Shown here: positions 34,120-59,355 of the stretch, piece after piece
How positions within the stretch are numbered: the stretch's first letter is position 1
Layout of the letters: the number at the start of each line of letters is the position of its first letter
Assembly (NCBI RefSeq): GCF_020529025.1
Contig: NZ_JACNMM010000010.1
Location: 1 to 64,000 of the forward strand
DNA: 64,000 nt
From: Oceaniglobus trochenteri
Lineage (GTDB): Bacteria; Pseudomonadota; Alphaproteobacteria; Rhodobacterales; Rhodobacteraceae
Direction of reading: 5' to 3'
Program-made: the position numbers and the translations under genes
Notes under the pieces: model-generated
Told to the model about the DNA's origin: nothing
Database searches by the model: none
The model's input: only the letters and a program-made list of their open reading frames with translations

Positions 34120-34123
34120 GCTG

Positions 34124-39778: not shown

Positions 39779-39820
39779 CCTGAGGCGACAAGGCCCGGCA
39801 AACGGGCAGGGGAGGAATGG

Positions 39821-39877
39821 GTGATCGTCATGGCCAAGTGCATCTGCGCCGTCCCGGTGGGCCGGTCCGCACCATGA
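39821..39877 (+). CDS. Possible 18-aa leader peptide coupled to the permease gene
   Basis: The strong ribosome site GGGGAGG at 39809-39815 is correctly spaced for GTG 39821, which opens an 18-codon frame (MIVMAKCICAVPVGRSAP). Its TGA overlaps ATG 39874 of the permease (ATGA). The same ribosome site is only one base from ATG 39817 in the permease frame and would not serve that codon well. It could be a translation-coupling leader or chance. Confidence 0.3.
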   Translation: MIVMAKCICAVPVGRSAP

Positions 39878-40884
39878 GGCGTTTCGCCACCCGCCATCCT
39901 GTCTGGACTGCGATCCTGGCGGTCATCGCCGCGCTGCTGTTGTGGATGATCTTTGCCGTCTGGCCCGACGGGTTCGAGGAAGTGTTCGGCCGCAAGAAGG
40001 TGTTCCTGAACGCGCTGTTCAACGGCATCACCCTGGGCGGGCTCTATTTCCTGGTGGCCAGCGGGTTTACCCTGATCTTCGGGCTGATGCGCAACGTGAA
40101 CCTGGCGCACGGGTCGCTGTACCTTCTGGGGGGCTATGTCGGCTATTTCGCCGCCGACATCACGGGGTTCTGGCTTCTGGCCTTCCCCATCGCCTTCGTG
40201 GTGGTCGGGTTCTTCGGTATCATGCTGCAAATCCTGGTCTTTAGACGGATGGAGGGCGAAGACCTGCGCCAGACCCTGGTGACCATCGGCATTTCCATCG
40301 TGGTGGCCGACCTGATGCTTTGGGGCTTTGGCGGTGATTTCTACAACATCTCGCCACCCGAATGGCTCTCGGGCCCGATGAGCACATTTTTCGTGACCGC
40401 CGTCAAATCCTCGGGCGAACCGGTGTTCATGAAGTACCCGATGGTGCGCATCGTGATCTTTGCCGCCTCGGTGGTGGTGGGTGTGGCCATGTGGCTGGCG
40501 CTGAACAAGACGCGTATCGGCATGATGATCCGCGCCGGCGTCGATGATCGCGACATGCTGAGCGCGACGGGCGCGCGCATCCAGATCGTCTTTGTCGGCG
40601 TCTTTGCCTTCGGGGCCGGGCTTGCGGGGATCGCCGGTGTCGTCGGCGGCACCTTCCAGTCGATCGCCCCGGGCGAGGATATACGGTTCCTGCTGGCCAG
40701 CCTCGTGGTGGTGATCGTCGGCGGCATGGGGTCGATTCCCGGCGCCGCGCTGGGGGCTCTGCTGATCGGGCTGGCCGAACAGTTCGGGTCGGTCTATTTC
40801 CCGACCTATGCCGTCGTGCTGACCTTCCTCATCATGGTGATCGTGCTGGCCTTCCGCCCGCAGGGTCTGTTGGGAAAGGCCTGA
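39874..40884 (+). CDS. Liv-type ABC transporter permease (LivH-like), catabolic cluster
   Basis: 336 residues from ATG 39874 (MRRFATRHPVWTAILAVIAALLLW); an in-frame ATG at 39817 adds 19 polar residues. About eight spans. LivH motifs: FNGITLGGLYFLVASGFTLIFGLMRNVNLAHGSLYLLGGYVG, the coupling loop MIRAGVDDRDMLSATGARI, and VVVIVGGMGSIPGAALGALLIGL. An additional N-terminal hydrophobic segment is present. It is first in a run of about 16 same-strand genes with gaps of 33 bases or less. Confidence 0.87.
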   Translation: MRRFATRHPVWTAILAVIAALLLWMIFAVWPDGFEEVFGRKKVFLNALFNGITLGGLYFLVASGFTLIFGLMRNVNLAHGSLYLLGGYVGYFAADITGFWLLAFPIAFVVVGFFGIMLQILVFRRMEGEDLRQTLVTIGISIVVADLMLWGFGGDFYNISPPEWLSGPMSTFFVTAVKSSGEPVFMKYPMVRIVIFAASVVVGVAMWLALNKTRIGMMIRAGVDDRDMLSATGARIQIVFVGVFAFGAGLAGIAGVVGGTFQSIAPGEDIRFLLASLVVVIVGGMGSIPGAALGALLIGLAEQFGSVYFPTYAVVLTFLIMVIVLAFRPQGLLGKA

Positions 40885-40887
40885 CCC

Positions 40888-41943
40888 ATGGTTGCCATGC
40901 CCGAATCCGACGCCCGCAGCGAAAAGAAGCCGCCCCAATGGGTGGAAAACACACCACCCGCCTATTGGGTGCTGGGCATCCTGCTGTTGATCGTGCCGAC
41001 CTTCGCCAGCAACTTCGTGATGTTCCAGATCATGGGCTGGACCTTCATCCTGGGCCTGATTGCCCTGTCGCTGATGTTCCTGGGCGGATATGGCGGGATG
41101 GTATCTTTGGCGCAAATGGCCTTTGCAGGCTTTTGCGGCTACATGATCGCCATCTTCGGCAACAGCGCGGTCGAGGGGATATCACAGGGCTGGCCCTGGT
41201 GGCTGGTCATTCCGCTGGCGTTGTTCCTCACCATGCTGTTCGCCACCCTCGTCGGCTGGCTGGCCGTGCGCACCGAGGGTATCTATACCATCATGATCAC
41301 CCTCGCCATCGCGGCGGCCTTCTTCTATTTCGCGCGCCAGAACTACGAGGTGTTCAACGGTTTCCAGGGCTTCAATTCGGTCCTGCCGCCCGAACTGTTC
41401 GGGGTCGATTGGCGCGGGCCGGTGGCCTTCTATTACCTCACCCTGTTCTGGGCCGTCGCCGGATATGCCGCGGTGCTTTACGTCAGCCGCGCGCCCTTCG
41501 GGCTGGCGCTGCAAGGGGTGCGCGACAATCCGCGCCGCATGGCCGCGCTGGGGTACAACGTGACCGCGCACCGGGTGGCGGCCTATGCCTTTGCCGCGCT
41601 GATCGCCGGGATCGGCGGTATCCTTCTGACCTGGCAATCGGCGCAGATTTCGCCCGGCACCATCAGCATTCAGGCCGCCATCGACGTTCTTGTGATCGCG
41701 GTGATCGGCGGGCTGCGCCATCCCATCGGCGCCTTCATCGGCGCCTTCATCTTCGTGCTGCTCAAGACCTTCGCCGTCGATGTCCTGATCGCGCTGGGGC
41801 TGGGGGGTGAGAGGTTCAACCTGCTGATCGGCATCGGTTTCCTGATCATCGTATTCTGGTCGCCCGACGGCCTTCTGGGGCTTTGGGAAAAGCTGCGCGA
41901 CAGCCGCAAGCGCGATCCGCTGACCGGCAAGGGGGTGGAGTGA
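40888..41943 (+). CDS. Liv-type ABC transporter permease (LivM-like), catabolic cluster
   Basis: A 351-residue membrane protein with about nine spans. LivM motifs: FILGLIALSLMFLGGYGGMVSLAQMAFAGFCGYM, VRTEGIYTIMITLAIAAAFFYFA, the coupling loop VRDNPRRMAALGYNVTAHRV, and VIGGLRHPIGAFIGAF. It starts 3 bases after the LivH-like gene and its stop overlaps the next start (TGATG). It differs clearly from livM at 14821. Confidence 0.87.
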   Translation: MVAMPESDARSEKKPPQWVENTPPAYWVLGILLLIVPTFASNFVMFQIMGWTFILGLIALSLMFLGGYGGMVSLAQMAFAGFCGYMIAIFGNSAVEGISQGWPWWLVIPLALFLTMLFATLVGWLAVRTEGIYTIMITLAIAAAFFYFARQNYEVFNGFQGFNSVLPPELFGVDWRGPVAFYYLTLFWAVAGYAAVLYVSRAPFGLALQGVRDNPRRMAALGYNVTAHRVAAYAFAALIAGIGGILLTWQSAQISPGTISIQAAIDVLVIAVIGGLRHPIGAFIGAFIFVLLKTFAVDVLIALGLGGERFNLLIGIGFLIIVFWSPDGLLGLWEKLRDSRKRDPLTGKGVE

Positions 41944-42731
41944 TGGCGCGCGATACCGTCACCGAACGCCTTGCCGCCACCGGCACCGACAACGCGCTGG
42001 AGCTGCGCGGTGTGTCGAAGAAATTCGGCGAGCTCGAGGCCCTGGGCGGAATCGAGATGACCGTGAAGCCGGGCGAGCGCCGCGCGGTGCTGGGCAGCAA
42101 CGGGGCGGGCAAGACGACGCTTTTCAACTGCATCACCGGCGATTTCGCTCCCACCACGGGCGCCATCCGCTTTTTCGGCGAAGACGTGACAGCCTTTCCC
42201 GCGCAGGAACGCATCCGCCGCGGGTTGCGCCGGACCTATCAGATTTCGCTGCTGTTTTCCGGGCTCTCGGTGATCGACAATATCTATCTTGCCTGTCGCG
42301 GCGTGTCGCGGGGGCGGTTTTCCTTCATCCGTCCGGGGCGGTCTGACGCGCTGATGCAATCGGCCGAGGATCTTCTGCGCGTCGTCCACTTGGAGCCAGT
42401 GCGCGACACCATGGTCAGCGACCTGTCCTATGGCCAGCAGCGCCAGCTTGAAATCGCCATGGCGCTGTCGGGGGCGCCGCGCTTCATCCTGTTCGACGAA
42501 CCGGCCGCCGGTCTTTCACCCACCGAACGCAGCGAACTGGTGCAAATCCTCACCGGGCTGCCCTCGCATGTTGGCTACATCATCATCGAACACGACATGG
42601 ACGTGGCCCTGCGCGTGTCGGACATGGTGACGATGATGCACAACGGGCGCATCTTCAAGGAAGGCAAGCCCGCCGAAATCGAGGACGACGAAGAGGTGCA
42701 GGCGCTGTACCTGGGGGGCGGCCATGACTGA
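41943..42731 (+). CDS. Liv-type ABC transporter ATPase (LivG-like), catabolic cluster
   Basis: 262 residues from ATG 41943. Walker A GSNGAGKTT, LivG-type GLRRTYQISLLFSGLSVIDN, the signature region LSYGQQRQLEIAMAL (Tyr replacing the first Gly of LSGGQ, common in LivG), Walker B FILFDEPAAGLSP and H-loop IEHDMDVALRVSD. It overlaps the following fusion gene by 8 bases. Confidence 0.87.
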   Translation: MARDTVTERLAATGTDNALELRGVSKKFGELEALGGIEMTVKPGERRAVLGSNGAGKTTLFNCITGDFAPTTGAIRFFGEDVTAFPAQERIRRGLRRTYQISLLFSGLSVIDNIYLACRGVSRGRFSFIRPGRSDALMQSAEDLLRVVHLEPVRDTMVSDLSYGQQRQLEIAMALSGAPRFILFDEPAAGLSPTERSELVQILTGLPSHVGYIIIEHDMDVALRVSDMVTMMHNGRIFKEGKPAEIEDDEEVQALYLGGGHD

Positions 42732-44874
42732 GCGCAGCGGCCCGGCAATCCTCGAGGTGAAAGACCTCAACGTCTATTACGGCCAGTCCCACGCGTTGCA
42801 GGGGGTGAACCTGACCCTTGGGGGCGGTGTGCTGTCGGTGGTGGGGCGCAACGGCATGGGCAAGACGACGCTCTGCAAGGCGATCATGGGTCTGGTGCCC
42901 ACCGCCTCGGGCGGCATTTCCCTTGGCGGTCAATCGCTTGCGGGGCTTTCCTCGGCCGAGATCGCGCGCCTTGGCATCGGCTATGTGCCCCAGGGGCGGC
43001 GGCTGTGGAAATCGCTGACCGTGGATGAACACCTGAAGCTTGTGGCAACGAAAGGCGGCGCCTGGACGCCCGAGCGTATCTATTCCGTCTTCCCGCGCCT
43101 GGCCGAACGCAAAACCAACGGCGGCGCGCAACTCTCTGGTGGTGAACAACAAATGTTGGCCATCGGGCGCGCGCTTCTGCTGAATCCGCGCCTGTTGGTG
43201 ATGGACGAACCGACCGAGGGTCTGGCCCCCGTCATCGTCAACCAGGTGGCCGATATGCTGATCCGGCTGGGGCAGGAGGGTGACATCGACGTTCTGGTGA
43301 TCGAACAGAACATCGGCGTGGCCTGTTCCGTGGCCGACCGCGTGGCGATCATGGTGAACGGCAAGATCAACCGCGTGATGGACGCCGGATTGCTGGCCAG
43401 CGACCGCGACCTGCAACAGGCGCTTCTGGGGGTCGGGCGCCATGCCCACGACGAAACCCCCGACGATGCCGACACCCGCCCTGTGCAGGGCACAGCCCCG
43501 CGCGGCCCGGCCAAGATTTACCTGTCGAACCCGAAAACCCCGACCCGCTGGAGCGCGCCGGTGCCGGTTCACCTTCTCGAACAATCCGCCCGCACCACAA
43601 GCGAGGTTGCAGCCGGCCCATCCCAGAGCGCGCCAAAGGTCGAACCGCGCGCCGGGGTCGTCTATGTCTGCGGCACGCTGGATACCAAGGGCGACGAGCT
43701 GCGGTTCATGCGCGACATCCTCAAGGGTGCGGGCTTGCGGGTGGCCATGGTGGACCTGTCCACCAGCGGAAAACCCTCGGGCGCCGAGGTGCCGCCTGCC
43801 GTGGTGGCCGGGTTCCATCCGCGCGGATCGTCGGGCGTTTTCACCGGCGACAGGGGCAGCGCCGTGGCGGGCATGACCCTGGCGTTCGAGCGGTGGATGA
43901 AAACCCGCAACGACGTGGCGGGCCTTCTGGCGGCGGGCGGATCGGGCGGCACGGCCCTCGTGGCACCGGCCTTTCGCGTCCCGCCCGTGGGGGTGCCCAA
44001 GGTGATCGTCAGCACCGTGGCCAGCGGCAACACCGAACAATACGTCGGCCCCGCCGATATCATGATGATGCATTCCGTGGCCGATGTGCAGGGCCTGAAC
44101 TCGATCACGCGCGAGGTGCTGGGCAATGCCGCCCATGCCGTCGCAGGCATAGCCAAGGCCCGCCAGAACGCCCAGCCCGCACCGGGCAAACCCGCCATCG
44201 GGCTGACCATGTTCGGCGTCACGACCCCCTGTGTGCGCCAGGTGGTGGCCCAGCTTGACGCCGACTATGACTGCCTTGTGTTCCACGCCACGGGAACCGG
44301 CGGTCGCAGCATGGAAAAACTGCTTTCTTCCGGCATGTTGCAGGGCGTTCTTGACCTCACCACCACTGAGGTTTGCGACATGGTGGCGGGCGGCGTTTTC
44401 GCCTCGGACACGACAAGGTTCGATGCGGCCATCAATTCGCGTCTGCCCTTCATCGGCGCCTGCGGGGCGCTGGACATGGTGAACTTCAACGCCCCCGACA
44501 CGGTGCCGGAAAAATACCGTGGCCGGCTTCTCTATGAACACAATCCGCAAATCACCCTGATGCGGACTTCGGTTGAAGAAAACGTCGCAATGGCCCGTTT
44601 CATCGGGGAAAAACTGAATCGGATGAATGGCGTGGTGCGGTTCTTCCTGCCCGAAGGGGGCGTTTCGGCGCTGGATGCCAAGGGTCAGCCCTTCTGGGAC
44701 CCGGCAGCCGACAAGGCCCTGTTCGACACGCTGGACCAGGTCGTGACCCAGACCGCCAACCGCCAGCTTGTCCGCGTGCCCCACAACATCAACGATCCCG
44801 AATTCGCAGCGCTGGTGGTCAAGACCTTCCGGTCGTTCCACGCGCAGCCGACCAAATCCGCCAAAGGAGCCTGA
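42724..44874 (+). CDS. Fusion: LivF-like ABC ATPase + UPF0261/Tm-1-like domain
   Basis: A 716-residue fusion in one uninterrupted frame. Residues 1-240 are a LivF-type ATPase (Walker [10 protein letters not shown] at 41-49, signature [15 protein letters not shown] near 137, Walker [22 protein letters not shown]). A ~70-residue Pro/Ala/Thr-rich linker follows. Residues ~310-700 are a UPF0261 (Tm-1-like) domain ([79 protein letters not shown]). UPF0261 resembles the N-terminal half of the tomato antiviral protein Tm-1. Its bacterial role is unknown; nucleotide binding has been proposed. The next gene matches the other Tm-1 half. Confidence 0.87.
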
Positions 44875-44875
44875 G

Positions 44876-45700
44876 ATGATCGACCGCGACACCCTGATGC
44901 AGAAGTTTCGCGCGATGCGCGACGCGGGCGAACCCATCGTCGGCGGCGGCGCGGGCACCGGACTTTCTGCCAAATGCGAAGAGGCGGGCGGGATCGACCT
45001 GATCGTGATCTACAACTCGGGCCGCTACCGCATGGCCGGGCGCGGATCGCTGGCCGGACTGATGCCTTATGGCGACGCGAACGGTGTGGTGATGGAAATG
45101 GCGGGCGAGGTTCTGCCGGTGGTGAAACACACGCCGGTTCTGGCCGGGGTCTGCGCCTCGGACCCGTTTCGCCAGATGAACCGGTTTCTGGACCAGGTGA
45201 AGGCCGAGGGGTTTTCCGGCGTTCAGAACTTCCCCACCGTGGGGCTGATCGACGGCACCTTCCGCGCCAACCTGGAAGAAACCGGCATGTCCTATTCCCT
45301 TGAGGTCGACATGATCCGCATGGCCCATGAAAAGAGCCTGCTGACCACGCCTTATGTCTTCTGCGAAGATGACGCACGCGCGATGGCCGGGGCGGGCGCC
45401 GACATTATCGTCGTGCATCTTGGGCTTACGACCGGTGGTTCCATCGGTGCGGAAACCGGCGTGTCGCTGGAGGAGGCCCCGGCGCTGACCGACGCCTGGG
45501 CCAAGGCGGCGCTTGAGGTGAACTCCGATGTCATCGTTCTGGTCCATGGCGGCCCGGTGGCGATGCCCGAAGATGCCGAATACGTCCTGAAGAACACCAA
45601 GCATTGCCACGGGTTTTACGGCGCCTCGTCGATGGAACGTCTTCCAACCGAGATCGCGCTGACCGAACAGACCCGTAAATTCAAGAAAATCAGCCGCTAA
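44876..45700 (+). CDS. Phosphoenolpyruvate-hydrolase-like TIM-barrel protein (Tm-1 C-terminal type)
   Basis: 274 residues from ATG 44876, one base after the fusion-gene stop and behind AAAGGAG. The sequence ([105 protein letters not shown]) matches the PEP_hydrolase-like/IGPS-like TIM-barrel family related to PEP mutase/isocitrate-lyase-type enzymes. The same domain forms the C-terminal half of Tm-1. Its substrate in bacteria is not established; C-C or C-P lyase or retro-aldol chemistry on a ring-opened intermediate is possible. Confidence 0.85.
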
Positions 45701-45733
45701 GGCACCGAAGTTCACCCAAAGGGAGGGTATATC

Positions 45734-48700
45734 ATGACCGGACAAGTGATAGGACAGTTGATCCTGTGGCTGATCATGGCGGTGATCGTCATTTTCATCC
45801 TCTACTGGGTGATGAACTGGCTCTACCGGCGTTCGACCAAGGAAATCGCCTTTGTGCGCACGGGTTTCCTGGGTGAAAAGGTGGTGATTGACGGAGGCGC
45901 CTTCGTCTGGCCGATCATCCATGACATCACGCCGGTCAACATGAACTCGCTTGACCTGAACGTGACGCGCGAGCGTGAGAAGGCGCTGATCACGAAGGAC
46001 CGGATGCGCGTTGATATCGAAGCGTCGTTCTACATCCGCGTCAAGCAGACGAAAGAGGCGGTGACGCTTGCCGCCTCAACCCTGGGCCGCCGCACCCTGG
46101 AGCCTGAGCGGATTCACCAGCTTCTGTCGGGCAAGTTCGTTTCGGCCATGCGCTCGGTCGCGTCGGAAATGACCATGGAAGAGCTGCACGAGCAGCGCGG
46201 CGAATATGTGCGCCGCGTTCTGGATTATGCACAGGAAGGGTTGGACAAGAACGGGCTGGAGCTGGAAAGCGTCGCCATTCTGGATATCGACCAGACCGAC
46301 ATCGAGTATTTCAACCCCTCCAACCGGTTTGACGCCGAGGGCCTGACCAGCGTGATCGAGGCGATCGAAGGGCGGCGCAAGCTGCGCAACGACATCGAAC
46401 AGGATACGATGATCCAGATCCGCGCCCGCAACCTTGAGGCCGAGCGGCAAAGCCTTGAGATTGAACGCGATTCCGAGTCGGCCCGCCTGGACCAGGAGCG
46501 CGAGATCGAATTCCGCCGCGCCCGCCAGCGCGCCGAACTGGCCCGCGAACGCGGCGAGCGCGAGAAGGAAGGCGAAGAGGCGACCCTTATCAGCCGCGAG
46601 GCCATCGAACGCGCCCGCATCGCCAACGAGGAACAGATCGCCGCCGCCCGCATCGCCAGCGAACGCACCATCCGCCAGCAGGAAATCGAACGCCAGCGGG
46701 TGATCGACGAGGCCGAGATTTCGACCCGCGAAGTGGTGGAAAAGGCGCGCATCATGCAGGAGCGCACCCTGACCGAGGCGCGCATTTCCAACACCCGCGA
46801 CACCGACGCCGCCGAGATTTCGGCCCGCGAAGCCATCGAAAAGGCGCGGATCGCACAGGAAAAGGCGCTGACCGAGGCGCGGATCGAAAAAGACCTCACG
46901 ACCCAGAGCCGCGAGATCGAACGCAAGCGCACCATAGACGAGGCCGACATTTCCGCCCGCGAGGTGATCGAGAAAGCCCGCATCGCCCAGGAGCGCGAGA
47001 TCACCGAGGCGCGGATCGCATTCGAACGTAACACCCGCGAGAAGGAGATTGAGCGTAACCTGGCCATCGAAGAGGCCGAGATCGCCAGCCGCGAGGCCAG
47101 CGAGAAGCTGCGCATCGCCCAGGAGCGCACGGTGAGCGCCGAGCGGATTTCCAGCGATCAGGAGACCCGCAAGCTGGAGATTGCCCGCAGGAAAGCCCTG
47201 GAAGAGGCTGAAATCGCAAGCGAACAGGCGATCGAGGCCGCCCGGATCGCCCGCGAAAAGATGCTGGCCGCCGAGAGGATCGAAAGCCAGCAGGCCACCC
47301 GCGCGAAAGAGATCGAACAGCGCAAGGTTCTGGACCAGGCCGAAATCGCCGCCAGCGAGGAAACCAGCAAGGAGCGGATCGCCCAGGAAGAGCGCATTCG
47401 CAGCCTGGAGATTGCCCGCAACCAGGCCATCGACGAGGCCGAGATCGCCAGCCGAGAGGCGGTGGAAAAGGCCCGCATCGCCACCGAGGCCCGCACCCAG
47501 GTGGAGCGGATCGAGAACGAGGAGCGCACCAAGGAGCGTGACCTGGCCCGCGAACAGGCCATCGCCTTTGCCGACACCGCGAAACAGGAGGCCGTGGAGG
47601 CCAAGCGGATCGCCAAGGAGAAGAAGCTGGCCGCCGAACGCATCGCCTATGAGCAGGACATGCGCGAACGCGAAATCGCCCGCAACCGCGCCGTGGACGT
47701 GGCCGCAAGCAGCGCCGCCGAGGCCGTGAACGCCGCCAAGATCACCGAGGCCGCGCGCACCCGTGCCGCCGAGATCGCCCGCGACGCCGAGATCCGCAGC
47801 CGCGAGATCGAGAAGCAGGAGGCCATCGAGGCGGCCGAGATCTCCAGCCGCCGGTTGATCGAAGGGCAGCGGATCGAGAAGGAGGCCGAAACCACGGTCG
47901 AGAAGATCGCCCGCGACCGCAAGATCCGCGATCTGGAGATCGAGCGCAACAGGGCGCTGGACGCCGCCCAGATCGCCGCCGACGAAGCCATCGAAGCCGC
48001 CCGCGTGGCCAAGGCCAAGACGGTGGACGCCGAAAAGATCGTGGCCGAGCAGGAGCTGGACTCCAAGCGGCTTGAGCGTCGCAAGGTGCTGGAGCAGTTG
48101 GAGATTGCCCGCGTACAGGCCCTTAACGAGGCCGAGATCGCCAGCCAGGAGGAGATCGAACGCGCCCGGATCGCATCGGAACGTGGGCTGGACGACGCGC
48201 GCATCGGCCACCAGACCGAACGCCGCCGCCTGGAGATCGGCCGCGAGAGAGCCGTGGAAGAGGCGAACATGGAAAAGGCCATCGCGCTGTACCAGAAGTC
48301 GCTTGACCAGTCCGCCGCCGCCATCGAGGCCGAGAACGCCCGTGCCCGCGCCGTCGAGGCGGCCGAGAAGGTCAAGACCGTCGGCGAAACCGAAGAGGCA
48401 TCGCGCCGCAAGGTCGTGGGTGTGACGGCGGCCCAGCTTGAGGCCGAGAAGACCCGCATCAAGGCCGAGGCCGACAAGATCCGCACCGCGGTCGAGGCCG
48501 AGGCCCAGAAGCTGATCAACGAGGCCGAGAACGTGCTGACCGACGGCGCGCGCACCAGCCTGTTCAAGCGCAAGATGCTGGAGCATGTGGAAGGCATCGT
48601 TTCGGCCAGCGTGAAGCCGCTGGAGAAGATCAACGACATCCGCATCATGCAACTGGGCGGCAGCGGCACCCAGGGGCTGAACTGGGCCGACGGGGCGCCG

Positions 48701-49378: not shown

Positions 49379-49381
49379 GCC

Positions 49382-50625: not shown

Positions 50626-51107
50626 TGGCTCGCACACCGCTGACATTCACGCTGAACGACGCCGAAACCGGGGTTTTCGTGGTTCCGGGATCGAACCTTC
50701 TTGATGTGCTGCGCCGGGGTGCCGGTGATCTGACACCCAAGCAGGGCTGCGCCCAGGGCACCTGCGGCAGTTGCACGGTTCTGATCGACGGGGTGCCGCA
50801 CCTGTCCTGTCTGACCCTGGCCGAGACCGTCGAGGGCAGGCGTATTGACACCACCGGCGGCCTTGCGGGCGGGCCGGACCTGCACCCGCTGCAACAGGCC
50901 GTCATGGAGGGTTTCGCGGCACAATGCGGGTTCTGCACGGCTGGCATGCTGATGGCGGCCAAGGCCCTGCTGGACCGCACGCCAAACCCCACCCGCGACG
51001 AGGTGATCGAGGCGATCAGCGGCAATCTCTGCCGTTGCACCGGCTATGAACCCATCGTCGATGCCATCCTGACGGCAAGCGCACGGATGCAAGGACGCAC
51101 AGCATGA
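50625..51107 (+). CDS. Molybdenum hydroxylase 2Fe-2S small subunit (CoxS-like)
   Basis: 160 residues from ATG 50625. Both clusters are intact: plant-ferredoxin-type Cys42, 47, 50 and 62 (QGCAQGTCGSC, LSCLTL), and the C-terminal helical cluster Cys101, 104, 136 and 138 (AAQCGFCTAGM, GNLCRCTGYEPIVDAI). It relays electrons from the Mo site to FAD. A longer reading from 50562 would overlap the FAD subunit and is rejected. It overlaps the large-subunit gene by 4 bases. Confidence 0.93.
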   Translation: MARTPLTFTLNDAETGVFVVPGSNLLDVLRRGAGDLTPKQGCAQGTCGSCTVLIDGVPHLSCLTLAETVEGRRIDTTGGLAGGPDLHPLQQAVMEGFAAQCGFCTAGMLMAAKALLDRTPNPTRDEVIEAISGNLCRCTGYEPIVDAILTASARMQGRTA

Positions 51108-52984
51108 GCAGCACCGAATTCCGCAAGGACCTGTTCGCCGACGAACGCGACGACACATTGAAAGAGATCGGCAAGCCCACGATACGGCAGGATATTCTGG
51201 GCCATGTCACCGGGCGCACAAAGTATTTCGACGATCACCTGTTTGATGGTCTGCTGCACATGCGCGCCGTGCGCTCGCCGCACCATCACGCCCGTATCCG
51301 CCGTATCGACACCGAGGCCGCCGCGCGAATGCCCGGGGTGCGCCGGGTGGTGACGGCGAAGGATGTTCCGGTAAACCTCAACACCCTGCTCAGCCTGATC
51401 AATTTCGGCCGCGACGATGAACCGCTTTGCGCCCATGACAAGGTGCGCTTTTTGGGCGAAACCGTCGCCTGGATCATCGCCGACACCGAACGCGAGGCCC
51501 GCGATGCCGTGGCGCAGGTGCGCGTGGATTACGAACCGCTTCCCCATGTTCTGGACGTGGAAGAGGCGCTGAAGCCCGACGCGCCGGTGGTGAACGAGGT
51601 CTATCCAAACAACACCTTCGATTATCACGGCAAATACGACCACCAGAAGCTGCGCTTTGGCGATGTGAACGCCGCCTTTGCCCGGGCCGATCACGTGATC
51701 GAGGCCGAATACCAGATGTCGCCCATCGAACAGGCGCCCATCGAAACCTGCGGGGCCATCGCCGCGCCCGAACAGAACGGGCGCTTCGTCTGCCACACCA
51801 ACACCCAGGCGCTGTTCTTTTCCCTCGGCACCACGGCAAAGCTGCTGGATACGCCTTCGTCACGGCTGCACTTCATCGGCGGCACCGCCGGCGGCGGGTT
51901 CGGCGGCAAGGTGGATTCCATCGTCGAACCGACCGCCGTTCTGGGGGCCATGCTGACCGGGCGGCCGGTGAAATTCGCCTGGGACAGGTACGAGGAAATG
52001 CAGGTGGGCGCGCCCCGCGGCGGCGAACGCTGGCGCATCAAGGACGGGGTGATGCGGGACGGCACGATCATCGCGCGGGAATTCACCGGTTTCTTCGATT
52101 CCGGCGCCTATATGCGGCTGTCGCCCTATGCAATCATCAAGGGCACCGGGCATCTGCCGGGGCCCTATTCGATTCCGAACGTCGCCAGCAACGTCTATTG
52201 CGTGGTGGCGAACCGCACGCCCGCCACCGCCATGCGCGGTTTCGGAATCACGGCGGTGGATTTTTCCATCGAATGCCACATGGACCGGGTGGCCGAGGCG
52301 GTGGGCATGAACCCGATCGAGCTGCGCATCCTCAATGCCTATCGCGACGGCGACATGAAGGCACATCGGCGGAAGGCCAAGAACACCGCCCTGATCGAAT
52401 GCTGCCAGGTGGCGGCGGGCAAGGCGGGTTGGTCGATTTCCGCCGATGCCATGGCCCAAAGCTCGCTTCGGGGCGGCGGTCTGGGCGAACGCGGCGCAAT
52501 CCCGGAAACCGCTACCGATGAAGAGGGGCGGATCGGGGAACGGCGCGCCGGGCGCACCCGCGACACCGCGCCATCGCGTCAACCGACGGGCCGGGTGCCT
52601 GCGGGCCATGCCGGGCAGGCGGTAACTGCCGCGCCGGTGCAGAACCCCGATATGGAGATCGAGATCGAGAGGATCGGCCACCGCATTGCCGCCCAGCAGG
52701 GCGCGGCCCCGGCACCCCGTGCGCCGCAACCACCCGCAGGCCAGCCCACGCCGCCACGCGCGGCCCCGCCCGCCGCCGCACCGCAATCGTCCTATGCCCC
52801 GCCGCCCAGCCCGCAGGCCACGGCGCCGACCTACCAGCAGCCTCCGGCACCGACGCCACCGCCCGCGCCAACACCACCCACGCCGCCGGCGGCAAGCGAA
52901 CCCTATAAACCCGAGCAACCGTTCAGCCGCGGCGTCAACCGCCCCGGCACCTCGCGGTTCCTCTCTGGCACGCGGAGGCGCTGA
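51104..52984 (+). CDS. N-terminal half of a split molybdenum hydroxylase large subunit, with Pro-rich tail
   Basis: 626 residues. Residues 1-450 match the first half of xanthine-dehydrogenase/CoxL large subunits: IRQDILGHVTGRTKYFDDH, RSPHHHARIRRIDTE, FLGETVAWIIADTE, then the Mo-cofactor segment FIGGTAGGGFGGKVDS and the active-site loop TPATAMRGFGI (compare AYRGAG of form-II enzymes). At the usual junction (AAGKAGWSISADAM) the family match ends. About 165 disordered residues rich in Pro, Ala and Gln follow, and the gene stops; the missing half begins one base later. This is an in-frame, two-gene split rather than a frameshift, because the tail is long, low-complexity and unrelated to the domain. 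Confidence 0.88.
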   Translation: MSSTEFRKDLFADERDDTLKEIGKPTIRQDILGHVTGRTKYFDDHLFDGLLHMRAVRSPHHHARIRRIDTEAAARMPGVRRVVTAKDVPVNLNTLLSLINFGRDDEPLCAHDKVRFLGETVAWIIADTEREARDAVAQVRVDYEPLPHVLDVEEALKPDAPVVNEVYPNNTFDYHGKYDHQKLRFGDVNAAFARADHVIEAEYQMSPIEQAPIETCGAIAAPEQNGRFVCHTNTQALFFSLGTTAKLLDTPSSRLHFIGGTAGGGFGGKVDSIVEPTAVLGAMLTGRPVKFAWDRYEEMQVGAPRGGERWRIKDGVMRDGTIIAREFTGFFDSGAYMRLSPYAIIKGTGHLPGPYSIPNVASNVYCVVANRTPATAMRGFGITAVDFSIECHMDRVAEAVGMNPIELRILNAYRDGDMKAHRRKAKNTALIECCQVAAGKAGWSISADAMAQSSLRGGGLGERGAIPETATDEEGRIGERRAGRTRDTAPSRQPTGRVPAGHAGQAVTAAPVQNPDMEIEIERIGHRIAAQQGAAPAPRAPQPPAGQPTPPRAAPPAAAPQSSYAPPPSPQATAPTYQQPPAPTPPPAPTPPTPPAASEPYKPEQPFSRGVNRPGTSRFLSGTRRR

Positions 52985-52985
52985 C

Positions 52986-54008: not shown

Positions 54009-54890
54009 GTGGCGGTGCGCGCCAATATCGCCGGGCTGAGCAGCCCCGAGGCGTTGCAGCGCGCGCTGGTCGATGCCCAGTACCTGGCCGACGATGCCCT
54101 TGCCACGTCAAGCTATCTTGCCCTGGCCCTGGGCAAGCCGATGTTGCTGGAGGGGGCGCCGGGCGTGGGCAAGACCGAGGCGGCGAAGGCCCTGGGTGGC
54201 GTGCTGGGCCGGCAGGTGATCCGGCTTCAGTGCTTTGAAGGCATCGACGCGGCGGCAGCACTTTATGAGTGGAACTATCCCCGCCAGATGCTGGCGATCC
54301 GGCAGGCGGGGCAGGATCATCTGAACCTCTACGGGGAGGAGTTCCTTTTGGAACGCCCCTTGCTGACCGCTTTAAGAAACCCCGCCACCTCGTTGTTGTT
54401 GATAGATGAAATCGACCGCGCCGATCACGAGTTCGAGGCCTTCCTTCTTGAATTCCTGTCGGATTTCACCATTTCCATCCCCGAAACCGGCACCGTGCGC
54501 GCCATGCAGCCGCCGGTGGTGGTGCTGACCAGCAACCGCACCCGCGACCTGCACGAGGCCTTGCGCCGCCGCTGCGTCTATCACTGGATCGACTATCCCC
54601 ATCCCGCGCTCGAGGCGCAGATCGTCATGGCCCGCGCGTCGCGCGTGGCGCAGGCGACGGCGGATGCCGTGGTGGCCAGCGTGAACGCCCTGCGTGCCGA
54701 ACCTCTGGCCAAGCCGCCGGGCGTGGCCGAAACCATCGAATGGGCCGAGGCGGCAACGCTGTTGAACGGGCAGGGCGCGCGCTGGCCCGATGCCTTCCGC
54801 CGGGCCATCGGCGTTGCGGTCAAGGATCACGATGACATGGCCTATCTGGCCCCCCGCCTTGACGGCCTTCTGCCCGGAGAGGCCGCATGA
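54009..54890 (+). CDS. MoxR-family AAA+ ATPase (CoxD-like maturation factor)
   Basis: 293 residues starting at GTG 54009, immediately after the upstream stop. Walker A EGAPGVGKTEAAKAL near 50, Walker B LLLIDEIDRADHEFEAFLLEFLSDF, sensor 1 VVLTSNRTRDLHEALRRRC with arginine fingers. In CO-dehydrogenase clusters CoxD, a MoxR-type ATPase, with the VWA protein CoxE matures the Mo active site. The same gene pair lies here directly after the large-subunit halves. It overlaps the VWA gene by 4 bases. Confidence 0.9.
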   Translation: MAVRANIAGLSSPEALQRALVDAQYLADDALATSSYLALALGKPMLLEGAPGVGKTEAAKALGGVLGRQVIRLQCFEGIDAAAALYEWNYPRQMLAIRQAGQDHLNLYGEEFLLERPLLTALRNPATSLLLIDEIDRADHEFEAFLLEFLSDFTISIPETGTVRAMQPPVVVLTSNRTRDLHEALRRRCVYHWIDYPHPALEAQIVMARASRVAQATADAVVASVNALRAEPLAKPPGVAETIEWAEAATLLNGQGARWPDAFRRAIGVAVKDHDDMAYLAPRLDGLLPGEAA

Positions 54891-55984
54891 CCCTGCCGCG
54901 CGCCCTGTCGCCCTTCGTCGGCTTTGCCCAGGCGCTGCGCCAGGCAGGCTTTGCCGTGTCGCCCGACCAGACCGCCAGCTTCATCGAAGCGGTGGGCGTG
55001 CTTGGCCCCCGCGATCTGACCGATGTCTGGCGGGCAGGGCGGGCCTTGTTTTCGGTGCCGCCTGAACGGCTTGCGGAATATGACGCGCTGTTTCGCGCGA
55101 TCTTCCTGGGCCAGACGGTCGCCGCACCCGCCGAGGGCGAGGATGACAGCGTCGAGGCCTTCGAGCCGACGGGCGAGACGCAGGAGATCGAGGTTGGCCA
55201 GGACGAAAGCGAAGTGGGCGGCGAGGCGGTGACGGCCGAACGGCTGGGCCGGCGCGAACTGGCCACGCGCGACGATGACGCCGCGCTGGTGCAACTTCAT
55301 CGCGAGGTGCCGGGCGCGCTGCCGCGTCGCCTGTCCTATCGGCGCCAGCGAGCCAACCGGGGCACCCGGATGGACATGCGCCGCATCCTGCGCGAGGCGG
55401 CAAGGCGCGAAGGCGATGTGCTGCGCCTGTTCGAAACCCGCCGCAAGACGCGTCAGCGGCGGGTACTGCTGCTGATCGACGTGTCGGGGTCGATGAAGGA
55501 ACGTTCCGAAGCCTCTTTGCGGCTGGCCCATGCCGTGGTGCAGGTGGCCGACCGCGCCGAGGTCTTCACCCTCGGCACCCGGCTGACCCGTGTCACCGCC
55601 GCCCTGCGCCCCGCCGACAAGGCCCAGGCGCTGGAGCGGGCAGGGGCGCTGATCGCCGATTTCGACGGGGGAACGCGGATCGGCGAGGCGCTGGCCACCT
55701 ATCTGGCAGTGCCGCGCTTTGCCGGCTTTGCGCGGGGGGCTGCCGTGATCGTGCTGTCCGACGGGTTGGAGCGGGGCGATCCGGCGGCGATGGTGGATGC
55801 TGTCGCGCGGCTGTCGCGCATCGCCTGGCGGCTCGATTGGCTGACGCCGCTGGCCCGCGATCCGGATTATGCCCCGGAAACCGCAGGTCTCAAGGCGATC
55901 CTGCCACTGATCGATACCCTGGCCGACGGCGCCGATACCGCCGCCATCACCGACCACATCCTGAACCTGAGGCGTGCCGCATGA
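54887..55984 (+). CDS. VWA-domain protein (CoxE-like), MoxR partner
   Basis: 365 residues. An N-terminal helical region (LRQAGFAVSPDQTASFIEAVGVLGPRDLTDVWRAGRALF) and an acidic linker precede a C-terminal von Willebrand A domain with the metal-adhesion motif LLLIDVSGSMKERSEASLRLAH and the downstream FDGGTRIGEAL and VLSDGLERGD. CoxE-type proteins act with MoxR ATPases on a target enzyme. The 4-base overlaps on both sides put it firmly in the operon. Confidence 0.9.
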   Translation: MTLPRALSPFVGFAQALRQAGFAVSPDQTASFIEAVGVLGPRDLTDVWRAGRALFSVPPERLAEYDALFRAIFLGQTVAAPAEGEDDSVEAFEPTGETQEIEVGQDESEVGGEAVTAERLGRRELATRDDDAALVQLHREVPGALPRRLSYRRQRANRGTRMDMRRILREAARREGDVLRLFETRRKTRQRRVLLLIDVSGSMKERSEASLRLAHAVVQVADRAEVFTLGTRLTRVTAALRPADKAQALERAGALIADFDGGTRIGEALATYLAVPRFAGFARGAAVIVLSDGLERGDPAAMVDAVARLSRIAWRLDWLTPLARDPDYAPETAGLKAILPLIDTLADGADTAAITDHILNLRRAA

Positions 55985-56856
55985 TCGATGCCCATCACCA
56001 CATCTGGCTGCAAAAGGATCTGCCCTGGCTGCTTGGCCCCGAACAGCCGCGCATCTTCGGACCCTACCGCGCAATCATGCGCGATTACACCACCCGCGAA
56101 TACCTGGCCGACATCGCCGGAACGGGCATCGGGAAATCGGTTTACGTCCAGGCCAACTGGGCGCCCAACTGGTTCATGGACGAGGCGGCCTGGGTGCAGG
56201 AGCAAGGCGAGGAACACGGGTTGCCCGATGCCATCGTCGGCTATGCCGATTTCACCACTGGCGATGTGCGCGACCAGCTGGACAAGTTGAAGAAATACAA
56301 CCGCATGCGCGGCATTCGTCAGCAACTGCATTGGCATGAGAATCCGACCTACCGCTTTGCCCGCGACCCCGACCTGTGCCGCGATGAAACGGTGCAGAAG
56401 AACATCGCCCGTTTGGGGGATTACGGCTGGTCCTTCGATCTTCAGGTCTTTGCGCCGCAGATGGCGGGCGCGGTGGACCTGGCCCGTGCCTGTCCTCACA
56501 TCACCTTCATCCTGCAACATGCCGGAATGCTTGAGGATCTGTCGGACTCAGGGCGCAAGCAATGGCAGGACGGGATGAAGGCGCTGGCCGATTGCCCGAA
56601 CGTGGTGACAAAGCTCAGCGCCTTTGGCACCTTCATCCACCGCAACGATCCCGATTTCATCGAAGAGATGATCGTGACCACCGAAGGCATCTTCGGCGCC
56701 GAGCGGTGCATGTTCGGCAGCAACTTTCCCATCGAAAAGCTCTGGACCAGTTATACCGAGCTGTTCAACGCCTTCAGATCGGGCGCCAAATCACTGAGCA
56801 AAAAGAAACAATCCGCAATCTTCAACGACACGGCCGCCCGTGTCTACGGCATCTAG
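55981..56856 (+). CDS. Amidohydrolase-2 family (TIM-barrel) hydrolase
   Basis: 291 residues from ATG 55981, overlapping the VWA stop. The metal-binding HxH motif (IDAHHHIWLQKDLPWLLG) is at the start, ILQHAGMLEDLSD in the middle, and FGSNFPIEKLW near the end, where Asn replaces the Asp of FGSDWP, a variant seen in part of this family. Relatives include lactonases (for example 4-sulfomuconolactone or 2-pyrone-4,6-dicarboxylate hydrolases) and decarboxylases. A lactone or ring-opening step fits the neighbours. Readings upstream of 55981 lie inside the VWA gene. Confidence 0.87.
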   Translation: MIDAHHHIWLQKDLPWLLGPEQPRIFGPYRAIMRDYTTREYLADIAGTGIGKSVYVQANWAPNWFMDEAAWVQEQGEEHGLPDAIVGYADFTTGDVRDQLDKLKKYNRMRGIRQQLHWHENPTYRFARDPDLCRDETVQKNIARLGDYGWSFDLQVFAPQMAGAVDLARACPHITFILQHAGMLEDLSDSGRKQWQDGMKALADCPNVVTKLSAFGTFIHRNDPDFIEEMIVTTEGIFGAERCMFGSNFPIEKLWTSYTELFNAFRSGAKSLSKKKQSAIFNDTAARVYGI

Positions 56857-56867
56857 GGAGGGGCAGC

Positions 56868-57716
56868 ATGGCCTTGCAAATTCACGTTCTCGATTATGGC
56901 GACATCGAACTGGAAACCTCGTTCCTGGTTCTGGGCCATGAATGCGGTCGGGTGCGCCGGGTGCCGGTTTACGGCTTCTTGATCACCGGGGGCGAATATC
57001 CGGTCCTGGTCGATACCGGCTACCGCGACAATGCGATCATGGAAAGCCTGGGGATGCGGGGGCTGCAATTCCACGACAACATGATCGAAAACCAGCTGGC
57101 CAAGCACGGGCTGAAGCTGGGCGATATCCGCTATATCCTGCACACCCACCTGCATATCGACCACGCCGGGCAGGACGACAAGTTTCCGATGAACACCACC
57201 GTCGTCATCAACCGGCGCGAGATGGAGTTTTCGGTCAGCGGCATTATGTTTCCGCAATACCCAAAGCCCGACATCAAGCACCTGGTGGACCGCATCTATG
57301 AGCCCGAGGCGATGCGTTTCCTCGACCTCGACATCACCACGGCGGAAGAGATCATTCCCGGCGTCTGGTGCGAATATGCCGGTGGCCACACCGAGGGCAG
57401 CATGAACGTGGTGGTGGAGACCGCCGAGGGCCTGGCCTGTATCTGTGGCGACGTGATCTATGATTTCAACGACCAGATCGTGAACCATGTCTACACCAAC
57501 AACTGGATGGAACCGCGCGTCACCGGCAACCACAGCCAGTCGAAACGCGAGGAGAAGGGCGCGATCAAGAAGCTGCTGAACAACTACACTTTCCTTCTGC
57601 CCATCCACGACAAGCCCGCCAAGATCGAGCGCCAGAAGGTTGTCGGGCGGCTTGGCATGACGGTGCCGGGGCCGCTGACCCAGACGCTGCCCGACCGCCC
57701 CTGGTTCCCGGTCTGA
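56868..57716 (+). CDS. Metallo-beta-lactamase-fold hydrolase (AHL-lactonase-like)
   Basis: 282 residues from ATG 56868 behind GGGAGGGG. The dinuclear zinc motif HTHLHIDHAG lies near 94-103, with later ligands in AGGHTEGS, CGDVIYD and LPIHDKP. The N-terminal YGFLITGGEYPVLVDTGY and overall length resemble AiiA/AttM-type N-acyl-homoserine lactonases. In this cluster a different lactone or ester produced after Mo-hydroxylase oxidation is equally likely. It lies 11 bases after the amidohydrolase and 3 before the next gene. Confidence 0.87.
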   Translation: MALQIHVLDYGDIELETSFLVLGHECGRVRRVPVYGFLITGGEYPVLVDTGYRDNAIMESLGMRGLQFHDNMIENQLAKHGLKLGDIRYILHTHLHIDHAGQDDKFPMNTTVVINRREMEFSVSGIMFPQYPKPDIKHLVDRIYEPEAMRFLDLDITTAEEIIPGVWCEYAGGHTEGSMNVVVETAEGLACICGDVIYDFNDQIVNHVYTNNWMEPRVTGNHSQSKREEKGAIKKLLNNYTFLLPIHDKPAKIERQKVVGRLGMTVPGPLTQTLPDRPWFPV

Positions 57717-57719
57717 GCC

Positions 57720-59321
57720 ATGGGCCACACTGCCATCTCCGACAGCTTCCGCGCCATCATCGACGAACACGAACCGGTGCGCCAGCTGGCCACCGGGTTC
57801 ATCTTTACCGAGGGGCCGCTGTGGCATCCGGTGGATCAATCGCTGATCTTCTCGGACATGCCGGGCGACGTGCGGCGTCAGTACGTGCCGGGGCAGGGCG
57901 TGCGTGAAATCGCAAGGCCCAGCAACAAGGGCAACGGCATGACCTATGATGCCGGGTTGAACCTGCTGGTCTGCGAACATGCCACCTCGTCGGTGGTGCG
58001 GCTGCGCCCGGATGGCACGCGCGAGGTGCTGTGTTCGCATTTCCAGGGGCGCGAGTTGAACAGCCCCAACGATATTGTCGTCGGCAATGACGGCGCGATC
58101 TGGTTCACCGATCCCACCTATGGCCGGCTGGAACATTTCGGCGTGCCGCGTCCGACGCAACTGGGCTTTCAGGGCGTCTACCGTCTTCCACCCGGTCACC
58201 AGCCTGGTGCAGAACCTGAACTTGTGGTAGACAAGTACCTGTTTTCACAGCCAAATGGCCTATGCTTTTCACCGTGTCAGCGCTGGATGTGGGTGAACGA
58301 TACCGATCAGGCGAACATCCGCATGTTCGACGTGGTGAACGGGCGGCTTGAGAATGGCCGGGTCTTCGCCGGTGGCATCAAGGACGATCTGAAACCCGGC
58401 GTGCCCGACGGAATGAAGGCCGACAGCAAGGGCAACCTTTACGTCACCGCGCCCGGGGGGATCTGGGTCTATTCCTTCCATGGAGAGCTGATCGGCAAGA
58501 TTTCCTGTCCCGAGATGGTGGCGAATTTCCACTGGGGCGGCCCGGATTGGAGCACGCTGTACCTCTGCGCCATGACCTCGCTTTATTCGGTGCAGACGCG
58601 GGCGAAGGGGCGCGACGAACCCTTCATGTATCCGGTTGTGCAACCGCCACGTCGGGTACAGGCGCAGGCTCCGCAAACCGTCCCGGCAGCACCTTCGCTG
58701 ATAACGCACCCGGTGGAACAACCCATCATTGCGTCGCGTAGCGCCTTGATCTTGCAGGATCTTCAGAACGACGTGATCATCGACGGCGGCGCCTTTGCGG
58801 CATCGGGTTCGCCGGAGCACGCCCGCAGCCAGAAGGTGCTGGCCAATGCGGCGCGGCTGGCGGCGGCGGCAAGGGCACAGGGCGTGATGGTGGTGCATGT
58901 CTGGATGGTCTGTGAACCGGGGCATCCGTACCTGGCGCAGCACGCCGACCTGATGCGCGGGCTCAAGGGCGAGAACGCGCTGGTGCGCGGCACCTGGGGC
59001 GTGAAACCGGCACCGGGCATCGAACCGCAGCCCGGCGATCTGATTGTCGAGAAAATGTCGATGAGCGCATGGGAAACCTCCCGTCTGGAAAGTTATCTGC
59101 ACCACGGCGGGCGCGACACGATCATCAACTGCGGCGCCTGGACGAACATGAGCGTCGAACACACGGCACGTACCGCCGCTGACAAGGGGTTTCGCGTCAT
59201 CGTGCCCGAAGATGCCTGTTCGTCGATGAACGCCGACTGGCACGCGGCATCCATCAACTATGCGATGCAGAACGTCGCAACGGTCACCACGACCGACGCG
59301 ATCCTTGCAAAACTGGCCTGA
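57720..59321 (+). CDS. Fusion: SMP-30/gluconolactonase + isochorismatase-like hydrolase
   Basis: 533 residues in one frame. Residues 1-305 are an SMP-30 beta-propeller lactonase with metal-ligand positions Glu31 (TEGPLWHP), Asn179 (SQPNGLCFS) and Asp230 (GVPDGMKAD). A Pro-rich linker (~305-335) leads to an isochorismatase-like domain (340-530): Asp347 (LILQDLQND) and Lys445 (LIVEKMSMSAW) of the usual Asp-Lys-Cys triad are kept, but the nucleophile Cys is Ser478 (WTNMSVEHTARTA). The second domain is thus not a standard cysteine amidohydrolase and may perform vinyl-ether-type hydrolysis or be altered. Last gene of the long run. Confidence 0.87.
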   Translation: MGHTAISDSFRAIIDEHEPVRQLATGFIFTEGPLWHPVDQSLIFSDMPGDVRRQYVPGQGVREIARPSNKGNGMTYDAGLNLLVCEHATSSVVRLRPDGTREVLCSHFQGRELNSPNDIVVGNDGAIWFTDPTYGRLEHFGVPRPTQLGFQGVYRLPPGHQPGAEPELVVDKYLFSQPNGLCFSPCQRWMWVNDTDQANIRMFDVVNGRLENGRVFAGGIKDDLKPGVPDGMKADSKGNLYVTAPGGIWVYSFHGELIGKISCPEMVANFHWGGPDWSTLYLCAMTSLYSVQTRAKGRDEPFMYPVVQPPRRVQAQAPQTVPAAPSLITHPVEQPIIASRSALILQDLQNDVIIDGGAFAASGSPEHARSQKVLANAARLAAAARAQGVMVVHVWMVCEPGHPYLAQHADLMRGLKGENALVRGTWGVKPAPGIEPQPGDLIVEKMSMSAWETSRLESYLHHGGRDTIINCGAWTNMSVEHTARTAADKGFRVIVPEDACSSMNADWHAASINYAMQNVATVTTTDAILAKLA

Positions 59322-59340
59322 AGGGGGGCCGCTCGGTGGG

Positions 59341-59355
59341 TTAACAGAATCTTAA
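59341..59355 (+). promoter_or_regulatory. CtrA-type binding site TTAA-N7-TTAA before aroQ-luxR
   Basis: TTAA (59341-59344), CAGAATC, TTAA (59352-59355) matches the full alphaproteobacterial CtrA consensus. It is in an AT-rich island 190 bases before aroQ and just after the end of the catabolic cluster. Confidence 0.6.

Follow-up and report, generated by a model that had tools for sequence, protein, structure and literature searches.

The window analyzed here, a stretch of 64,000 nucleotides of Oceaniglobus trochenteri DNA (contig NZ_JACNMM010000010.1, positions 1 to 64,000), carries 17 plus-strand genes at positions 39817-59321 encoding most of a Liv-type ATP-binding cassette (ABC) importer, a UPF0261 domain fused to an importer ATPase, a PEP_hydrolase-family protein (PEPH), a giant flotillin, 2 SRPBCC proteins, a molybdenum (Mo) hydroxylase and several hydrolases. 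In the explanation that we favor, and to which as a whole we assign a probability of roughly 0.5, the array is a horizontally moving catabolic operon, which would import a ring compound and oxidize it at a flotillin-based site on the membrane. Gene order, protein families, co-inheritance, the split of the Mo subunit, its tail and the 11-residue (hendecad) register of the flotillin are read directly from the sequence. Open reading frames and Pfam matches bear out the initial annotation, which had described a one-strand array with short gaps and 4-base overlaps, in this gene order and with these domains; once gene starts had been corrected from the sequence and then checked, its end at 59321 stood and its start moved from 39821 to 39817. 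The largest internal gap, at the PEPH-flotillin junction, is 33 bases, and 4-base overlaps join SRPBCC 2 to CoxM, CoxS to CoxL, MoxR to VWA and VWA to the Amidohydro_2-type hydrolase (AmHyd). As also described, genes for a binding protein, a protein resembling iron-containing alcohol dehydrogenases (Fe-ADH-like), an aldehyde dehydrogenase (ALDH) and an AraC-type regulator precede the array, the last lying 38 bases from the first permease gene. A consensus scan of positions 39700-59600 on both strands gave 3 promoter-like sites against 2.9 expected, with a sigma-70 consensus that fits alphaproteobacteria poorly, and 19 terminator-like sites against 14.4 expected (standard deviation 4.5). Both counts are near expectation, and the check for internal promoters and terminators proposed in the annotation thus gave no sign of separate units. 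Rfam yielded no matches.

The same ordered set, sought in other Rhodobacterales as the annotation had suggested, was found there and also beyond the order. Of 292 genomes of the order, 80 had some flotillin match, and the surroundings of the 15 best-scoring ones, the window's own excluded, were inspected (loci labeled G). Eight of the 15 have the complete set, correctly ordered, up to the limits of their contigs (G203 and G291 are cut), 2 a shorter version without Mo genes (G235, G195), 2 another version (G017, G224) and 3 flotillins without the cluster (G176, G034, G287). Named-genome loci (labeled L) are the best 80 of 212 ATPase-UPF0261 relatives, 78 of them distinct, so that the share with a full set is not the share of all UPF0261 genes. 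With duplicates G203, G087, G291 and G124 (of L065, L074, L106 and L126, respectively) removed, and with G224, G176, G034 and G287 left outside, 88 nonredundant loci were compared. The 2 permeases, both ATPases with the UPF0261 fusion, the flotillin, both SRPBCC proteins, CoxM, CoxS and the 2 halves of CoxL are all present in 60 of the 88, and their order, from the first permease to the C-terminal CoxL half, is identical in all 60. Conservation thus extends to the whole set rather than to small subsets of it, in line with the single co-inherited unit that the initial annotation had proposed. Median gaps in the full loci range from -8 to 5 bases, except for the gap spanning PEPH, the gene of which lies between UPF0261 and the flotillin in 59 of 60. 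Among the 28 loci without the full set, 14 reach a contig edge (L064, L065, L068, L083, L089, L091, L098, L101, L104, L107, L117, L118, L123, and L128), one is rearranged (L086), 4 represent short or alternative versions (L116, G195, G235, and G017) and 9 carry UPF0261 but no importer genes (L127, L132, L133, L135, and L137-L141).

Conservation of the flanks is uneven. In the 60 full loci, AraC is found in 59, the binding protein in 58, the Fe-ADH-like gene in 50 and ALDH in 34; these counts do not support the 2 dehydrogenase-like genes as fixed parts of the set, even if some copies of the very divergent Fe-ADH-like gene may escape detection. Downstream, the fusion of SMP-30 lactonase and isochorismatase-like domains (SGL/Iso) is full-length in 19 of 20 genomes searched, with Fodinicurvata, which has a short version, giving SGL matches only. 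Seventeen of 19 genomes reached from named loci have MoxR, VWA, AmHyd, the metallo-beta-lactamase-fold hydrolase (MBL) and SGL/Iso next, in this order; the same holds for 7 genomes of the order (with SGL truncated at the contig edge in G291) and for the Yoonia plasmid. In a gammaproteobacterial metagenome-assembled genome (MAG), SGL/Iso is upstream on the opposite strand. The full set is carried by Rhodobacterales, Hyphomicrobiales, other alphaproteobacteria and one gammaproteobacterial MAG. Judging from these sequences, carriers are mostly marine or soil alphaproteobacteria, and the block is one co-inherited unit.

In Yoonia (source given as marine algae) and Shinella, the set is plasmid-borne. 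The tree of the C-terminal half of CoxL (CoxL_C) pairs Aurantimonas with Pseudoruegeria (support 99/88) and the Granulosicoccaceae MAG with Nitratireductor (96/82), and places Hoeflea and Roseitalea within one Rhodobacterales-containing clade (100/99); this mixing of orders indicates that the block moves. Within the order, CoxL_C orthologs of at least 78% identity occur in 9 of 292 genomes, and the other matches listed reach 36% at most. That 2 or more independent units adjoin by chance, as the existence of short versions without Mo genes might suggest, is very improbable, considering that order is fixed across orders and on plasmids with gaps near zero, and that a one-gene tree mixes orders while the block stays whole. 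In one of the 9 carriers (G174; L217/L218), the downstream half of the cluster persists as a decayed copy with disrupted frames, cut by the contig end. On the Yoonia plasmid (L061), a second Liv-type importer set (3105-7749) directly precedes the cluster.

The FAD, 2Fe-2S and Mo-cofactor domains are all present in the Mo enzyme, placing it in the xanthine oxidase family, and GGKGPGEMCANP, in what we take to be the catalytic Glu region, is invariant in 13 aligned Mo C-halves. Separate genes encode the 2 halves of the Mo subunit in 63 of 63 loci (60 of 60 when 3 duplicates are removed), spaced from a 4-base overlap to 15 bases apart, which rules out a sequencing error or frameshift. The nearest solved structures, 3hrd_A for the N-half and 3hrd_B for the C-half, belong to nicotinate dehydrogenase, presumably from Eubacterium barkeri, whose Mo subunit is split at the same domain border. 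By contrast, 3hrd_A, with 425 residues, has no long tail, and the enzyme described here is accompanied by MoxR/VWA, flotillin and SRPBCC genes. Past approximately residue 445, the N-half continues into a tail of 82-202 residues with a median of 19% proline, compared to 5% in the cores, and terminates with a conserved peptide (RFSS-SG-RRR or SRFLSG-RRR type). Three basic residues form the C-terminus in all 60 nonredundant N-half orthologs longer than 500 residues, and conservation extends beyond the triplet, with Gly at -5 in 55 and Ser at -6 in 51 of the 60; by comparison, none of 997 other open frames taken from the cluster (PEPH left out) terminates in RRR. Control N-halves of other split Mo subunits in the order, with 31-33% identity, end approximately 482 residues after the aligned start, and tail and basic triplet are absent in 4 of 4 (3 from one genus). 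On this small control of 4, the proline-rich tail accompanies the flotillin cluster. A CoxL-like match in Actinomadura (L133) turned out to be merely to the proline-rich tail.

The gene order resembles that of the aerobic CO dehydrogenase operon coxMSLDEFG, in which genes for the FAD, 2Fe-2S and Mo subunits are likewise followed by CoxD- and CoxE-type genes and accompanied, through CoxG, by an SRPBCC gene. However, the Mo subunit here is split, the SRPBCC proteins match only Polyketide_cyc2 (PF10604) and Polyketide_cyc (PF03364) and not the CoxG family, and no Pfam match of the XdhC/CoxF type was found among the 17 genes. Each residue of a loop AMRGFG, which presumably stands where the active-site loop of CO dehydrogenase would be, is kept in at least 95% of 60 aligned N-halves; this loop rules out CO dehydrogenase, and the corresponding NCBIfam models score far below their cut-offs. 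CoxG itself has been proposed, in excerpts of PMC4240915, to recruit CO dehydrogenase to the membrane.

Both Band_7 and Flot matches of the flotillin exceed the Pfam cut-offs, and the NCBIfam FloT equivalog model reaches 38.6 bits, compared to a cut-off of 700. Among the 17 operon proteins, Pfam gave no match to an NfeD-family partner, such as PMC2636767 describes for SPFH2 proteins, or to a bacterial microcompartment or encapsulin shell family. The coil has a period of 11 residues, with identity peaks at lags of 44, 77, 88, 33 and 11 and hydrophobic power at 2.75 and 5.5 residues. In 69 of 69 nonredundant sequences with 21 distinct lengths, the distance between 2 fixed anchors differs from that of the window by 11k (45 sequences) or 11k+3 residues (24), so that 2 of 11 phase classes hold all lengths. 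Were the 20 non-window lengths independent, which they are not entirely, the chance of this pattern would be approximately 1.6e-15, and the CoxL_C tree (60 rows) requires at least 25 changes of coil length but only 2 of phase. Ordinary flotillins of the order (L014-L030), in which 259-446 residues separate these anchors, share the phase in 8 of 8 mapped (17 tried); the 11-residue rule thus probably applies to the family in general, and the giant flotillins are an extreme case of it. The steps might instead have arisen as a mutational side effect when 33-base repeats recombined, with no selection on phase. We consider this rather unlikely: a protein repetitive with period 11 tends to change by whole units, but the flotillin gene of the window contains no extended 33-base DNA array, while the shared phase of ordinary flotillins is readable either way.

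Flotillins accompanied by Mo genes are 876-1190 residues long, as opposed to 566-731 in versions with a fused zinc-containing alcohol dehydrogenase (Zn-ADH), the exception being a 960-residue flotillin without Mo genes (G017). SRPBCC 2 is the protein fused to Zn-ADH in short versions G235 and L116; in G195, a Rieske-type oxygenase alpha subunit follows. Variovorax paradoxus VAI-C (L185, CP063167.1) has a short version with a 562-residue annotated flotillin and 2 SRPBCC genes, near Rieske-type oxygenase genes. The AlphaFold monomer of the window's flotillin places helices at residues 201-717 and 722-932 at low confidence. Hendecads favor slightly right-handed packing of helices. The human flotillin wall is, according to excerpts of PMC11260169, a right-handed barrel of 44 helices spanning 186 residues, hole-free, in a complex 22 nm high; by extrapolation, a wall of approximately 700 residues would be several times taller. 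Giant SPFH2 (SPFH2b) proteins of 800-1000 residues were noted already in 2009 (PMC2636767, excerpted) and, like the human cage, share SPFH and Flot domains and a long coil with the flotillins analyzed here, which differ in reaching 1190 residues, in belonging to a catabolic operon and in the lack of an NfeD match. The portions of these 2 accounts that we drew on make no mention of 11-residue length steps. Thus, giant flotillins are an already described class.

The importer comprises a binding protein, 2 BPD_transp_2 permeases and 2 ATPases, as expected of the Liv type. Nearest to the binding protein are 4zpj, 4ey3 and 4evq, with 4f06 among further relatives; we take 4ey3, 4evq and 4f06 to be Rhodopseudomonas proteins. 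Several such R. palustris proteins bind benzoate or coumarate (PMC3223731, in excerpt). The UPF0261 domain, with both Pfam halves present and modeled at a predicted local distance difference test (pLDDT) score of 87.3, has the fold of tomato Tm-1 and of 9mpy, which is Saro_1862 of Novosphingobium aromaticivorans with acetovanillone bound, according to the entry title (33% identity in the structural alignment). Family and fold are shared with Saro_1862, whereas the domain described here is fused to an importer ATPase and adjoins PEPH. Acetovanillone catabolism in N. aromaticivorans starts with a single-component kinase, MarK (excerpts of PMC13101465), which we infer to be Saro_1862. An assignment of HpeHI/AcvAB to UPF0261 was considered and discarded: HpeHI is an ATP-grasp/swivel dikinase according to excerpts of PMC12167813, and acvAB is homologous to hpeHI (PMC9618137, likewise in part). 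These phenol dikinases would take the same place in a pathway, activating an aromatic compound with ATP as its catabolism begins, but have ATP-grasp and swivel domains, for which there is no Pfam match among the operon proteins.

UPF0261 is reported to co-evolve with a TIM-barrel TBST domain (PMC5028733, in the text available), probably the PEP_hydrolase family. G017, which lacks PEPH, has a degenerate UPF0261 domain, with identity at 83 of 302 aligned residues, suggesting that the pair works together. UPF0261-PEPH occurs with SRPBCC genes also in Azospirillum, Terrarubrum and Actinobacteria; in the latter (L133, L137-L141), UPF0261, PEPH and an SRPBCC gene stand together. The 2 actinobacterial loci that were scanned have P450/methyltransferase (L133) and epimerase/glycosyltransferase (L139) neighbors. 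Such surroundings would fit a biosynthetic or modifying unit, a highly improbable reading of the present operon, which combines an importer, a Mo hydroxylase and several hydrolases and in which Pfam detects no ligase, synthase or exporter family.

Within the PDB, MBL is closest to N-acyl homoserine lactone (AHL) lactonases and AmHyd to 4dlf; among NCBIfam models, AmHyd is closest to that of L-fuconolactonase, below its cut-off. In the isochorismatase-like domain, Ser replaces, in 28 of 28 aligned sequences, what we take to be the catalytic nucleophile Cys of isochorismatase-fold amidases, with Asp and Lys kept, which argues against simple amide hydrolysis, a step that the initial annotation had inferred. 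The lactonases might themselves define the pathway, the substrate being lactone- or sugar-acid-like (an AHL, a furanone or a deoxy-sugar lactone) and the Mo enzyme oxidizing an aldehyde or lactol. This seems unlikely to us. It draws on the relatives of MBL and AmHyd, the SMP-30 domain, SDR and FAH genes that follow the cluster in some loci, the LuxR-type gene following it in the window and the short version in V. paradoxus VAI-C, presumably an AHL-degrading strain; yet no score reaches a function-level cut-off, no LuxR match is listed for the 8 relatives with sequence past SGL/Iso (G087, G040, G141, G021, G124, G080, L061, and L062), and relatives of UPF0261 and the binding protein point to aromatics. 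Given the relatives of the binding protein, the acetovanillone in 9mpy and nicotinate dehydrogenase as the relative of the Mo enzyme, an aromatic or heteroaromatic ring is favored as the probable substrate, so that the ring-compound import of the initial annotation is plausible. For the homarine pathway, nothing fitting was found in the literature listing.

In the favored catabolic explanation, where we infer the substrate, reaction order, docking and scaffold, the importer would take in an aromatic or heteroaromatic compound, which the importer-fused UPF0261 domain and its PEPH partner might activate on arrival, perhaps with ATP. The nicotinate dehydrogenase-type hydroxylase, matured by MoxR/VWA as its family suggests, would then oxidize it, and the 3 lactonase-family hydrolases with the isochorismatase-like domain would open the products. 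At the membrane, the giant flotillin is predicted to assemble into a long helical structure built on hendecads. The 2 SRPBCC proteins could transport a hydrophobic intermediate or link the Mo enzyme to the membrane, and the Mo subunit may dock at the flotillin site through its flexible tail and basic C-terminal peptide. A tether-like tail on the Mo subunit lends indirect support to the putative membrane scaffold of the initial annotation. Loose membrane association, with a raft and a lipid-binding tail but neither cage nor specific docking, is quite possible, if short of even odds: a flexible linker with a polybasic C-terminus is a simple way of binding lipids and CoxG-like recruitment requires no cage, whereas a register kept through at least 25 length changes suggests an ordered wall and the peptide is conserved beyond its basic triplet. 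A bolder and distinctly unlikely version makes the flotillin cage a metabolic compartment, importer-fed, membrane-capped and hendecad-walled, its height set in 11-residue steps and its Mo hydroxylase loaded by the tail, whose conserved basic peptide would serve in docking; importer-UPF0261, PEPH, flotillin and the SRPBCC pair would make up a core chassis for varied oxidoreductases.

Several observations weigh against the catabolic explanation. None of 20 proteins scored above a function-level NCBIfam cut-off, only uncharacterized UPF0261 models being passed, and the flotillin model is poor (pLDDT 59). Three lactonase families with SDR/FAH genes fit sugar-acid or lactone routes equally, and the basic tail may simply bind lipids. 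L110 lacks PEPH despite a normal UPF0261 domain, Hoeflea has no AmHyd match and the Shinella plasmid no MBL match, flotillin occurs without the Mo enzyme in 6 loci (G017, G224, G235, G195, L116, and L185), and UPF0261-PEPH is found beside sugar importers, cupins and Gfo/Idh genes as well as in the P450 and glycosyltransferase loci.

In line with the initial annotation, which knew of no described pathway with this set, no description combining these parts was found in the open literature, a coverage that leaves out most subscription papers and all preprints. Should the explanation hold, a bacterial flotillin would be linked to specific metabolic partners, along with a docking-like peptide and a rule of 11-residue steps in length. 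UPF0261 and PEP_hydrolase, both widespread families, would be connected with uptake and probably with the catabolism of aromatics, and the block would mark a catabolic capacity common to marine and plant- or soil-associated bacteria. If the chamber version were true, it would be a new bacterial way to enclose a pathway.

Features of the Oceaniglobus trochenteri cluster, with positions in the window and supporting matches (E-values where given)
Feature	Position	Strand	Evidence
Liv/Urt-type substrate-binding protein	34957..36216	+	Peripla_BP_6 5.6e-51; open frame from 34750
Fe-ADH-like protein, divergent	36308..37318	+	ADH_Fe_C 7e-7; usual HxxxH missing
Aldehyde dehydrogenase	37315..38745	+	Aldedh 1.2e-152; open frame from 37126, TTG start estimated
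AraC-type regulator	38888..39778	+	HTH_18 1.4e-23
Permease 1 (BPD_transp_2)	39817..40884	+	7.2e-34
Permease 2 (BPD_transp_2)	40888..41943	+	4e-34
Importer ATPase 1	41943..42731	+	ABC_tran 6.6e-28
Importer ATPase 2 fused to UPF0261/Tm-1-like domain	42724..44874	+	ABC_tran 1.4e-25, UPF0261 6.5e-54, UPF0261_C 3e-89
UPF0261 domain of fusion	43660..44835	+	residues 313-704
PEP_hydrolase-family TIM barrel (PEPH)	44876..45700	+	PF09370 1.6e-130; 2p10
Giant flotillin, 1068 aa	45734..48940	+	Band_7 6.4e-19, Flot 1.1e-34
Putative helical hendecad-repeat part of flotillin	46334..48529	+	11-residue autocorrelation, length register, low-confidence model
SRPBCC protein 1	48941..49378	+	Polyketide_cyc2 1.4e-22
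SRPBCC protein 2	49382..49828	+	Polyketide_cyc2 1.5e-19
CoxM-type FAD subunit	49825..50625	+	FAD_binding_5 1.5e-28
CoxS-type 2Fe-2S subunit	50625..51107	+	Fer2_2 1.4e-29
Mo subunit N-half (CoxL_N), 626 aa	51104..52984	+	Ald_Xan_dh_C, MoCoBD_1; 3hrd_A
Proline-rich tail of N-half	52439..52981	+	proline content
C-terminal peptide of N-half, ending in three Arg	52940..52981	+	
Mo subunit C-half (CoxL_C), 340 aa	52986..54008	+	MoCoBD_2 1.3e-57; 3hrd_B
MoxR-type AAA+ ATPase (CoxD-like)	54009..54890	+	AAA, AAA_5
VWA protein (CoxE-like)	54887..55984	+	VWA_CoxE 3.8e-47
Amidohydro_2/fuconolactonase-like hydrolase (AmHyd)	55981..56856	+	4.6e-41; 4dlf
Metallo-beta-lactamase-fold AHL-lactonase-like hydrolase (MBL)	56868..57716	+	Lactamase_B 5.4e-14
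SMP-30 lactonase/isochorismatase-like fusion (SGL/Iso)	57720..59321	+	SGL 8.5e-41, Isochorismatase 1.8e-45

Upstream of the array, the top NCBIfam model for ALDH is 2,5-dioxovalerate dehydrogenase, below its cut-off. For the Fe-ADH-like protein, a loose HxxxH pattern, which we take to be the metal motif of iron-containing alcohol dehydrogenases, occurs in 7 of 58 sequences including that of the window, where it is not at the expected place; the protein may have another role. Genes for PhoU and a PhoB-type regulator (33406-34813) directly precede the cluster, and both were also matched before it in 3 of the 80 named-genome loci (L064, L065, and L124), some of which have little upstream sequence; judging from these shared neighbors, the pho genes were probably the site next to which the block inserted in this lineage. 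On the downstream side, a frame without a Pfam match (59418-59990) is followed by a gene for a LuxR-type autoinducer-binding regulator (59989-60732).

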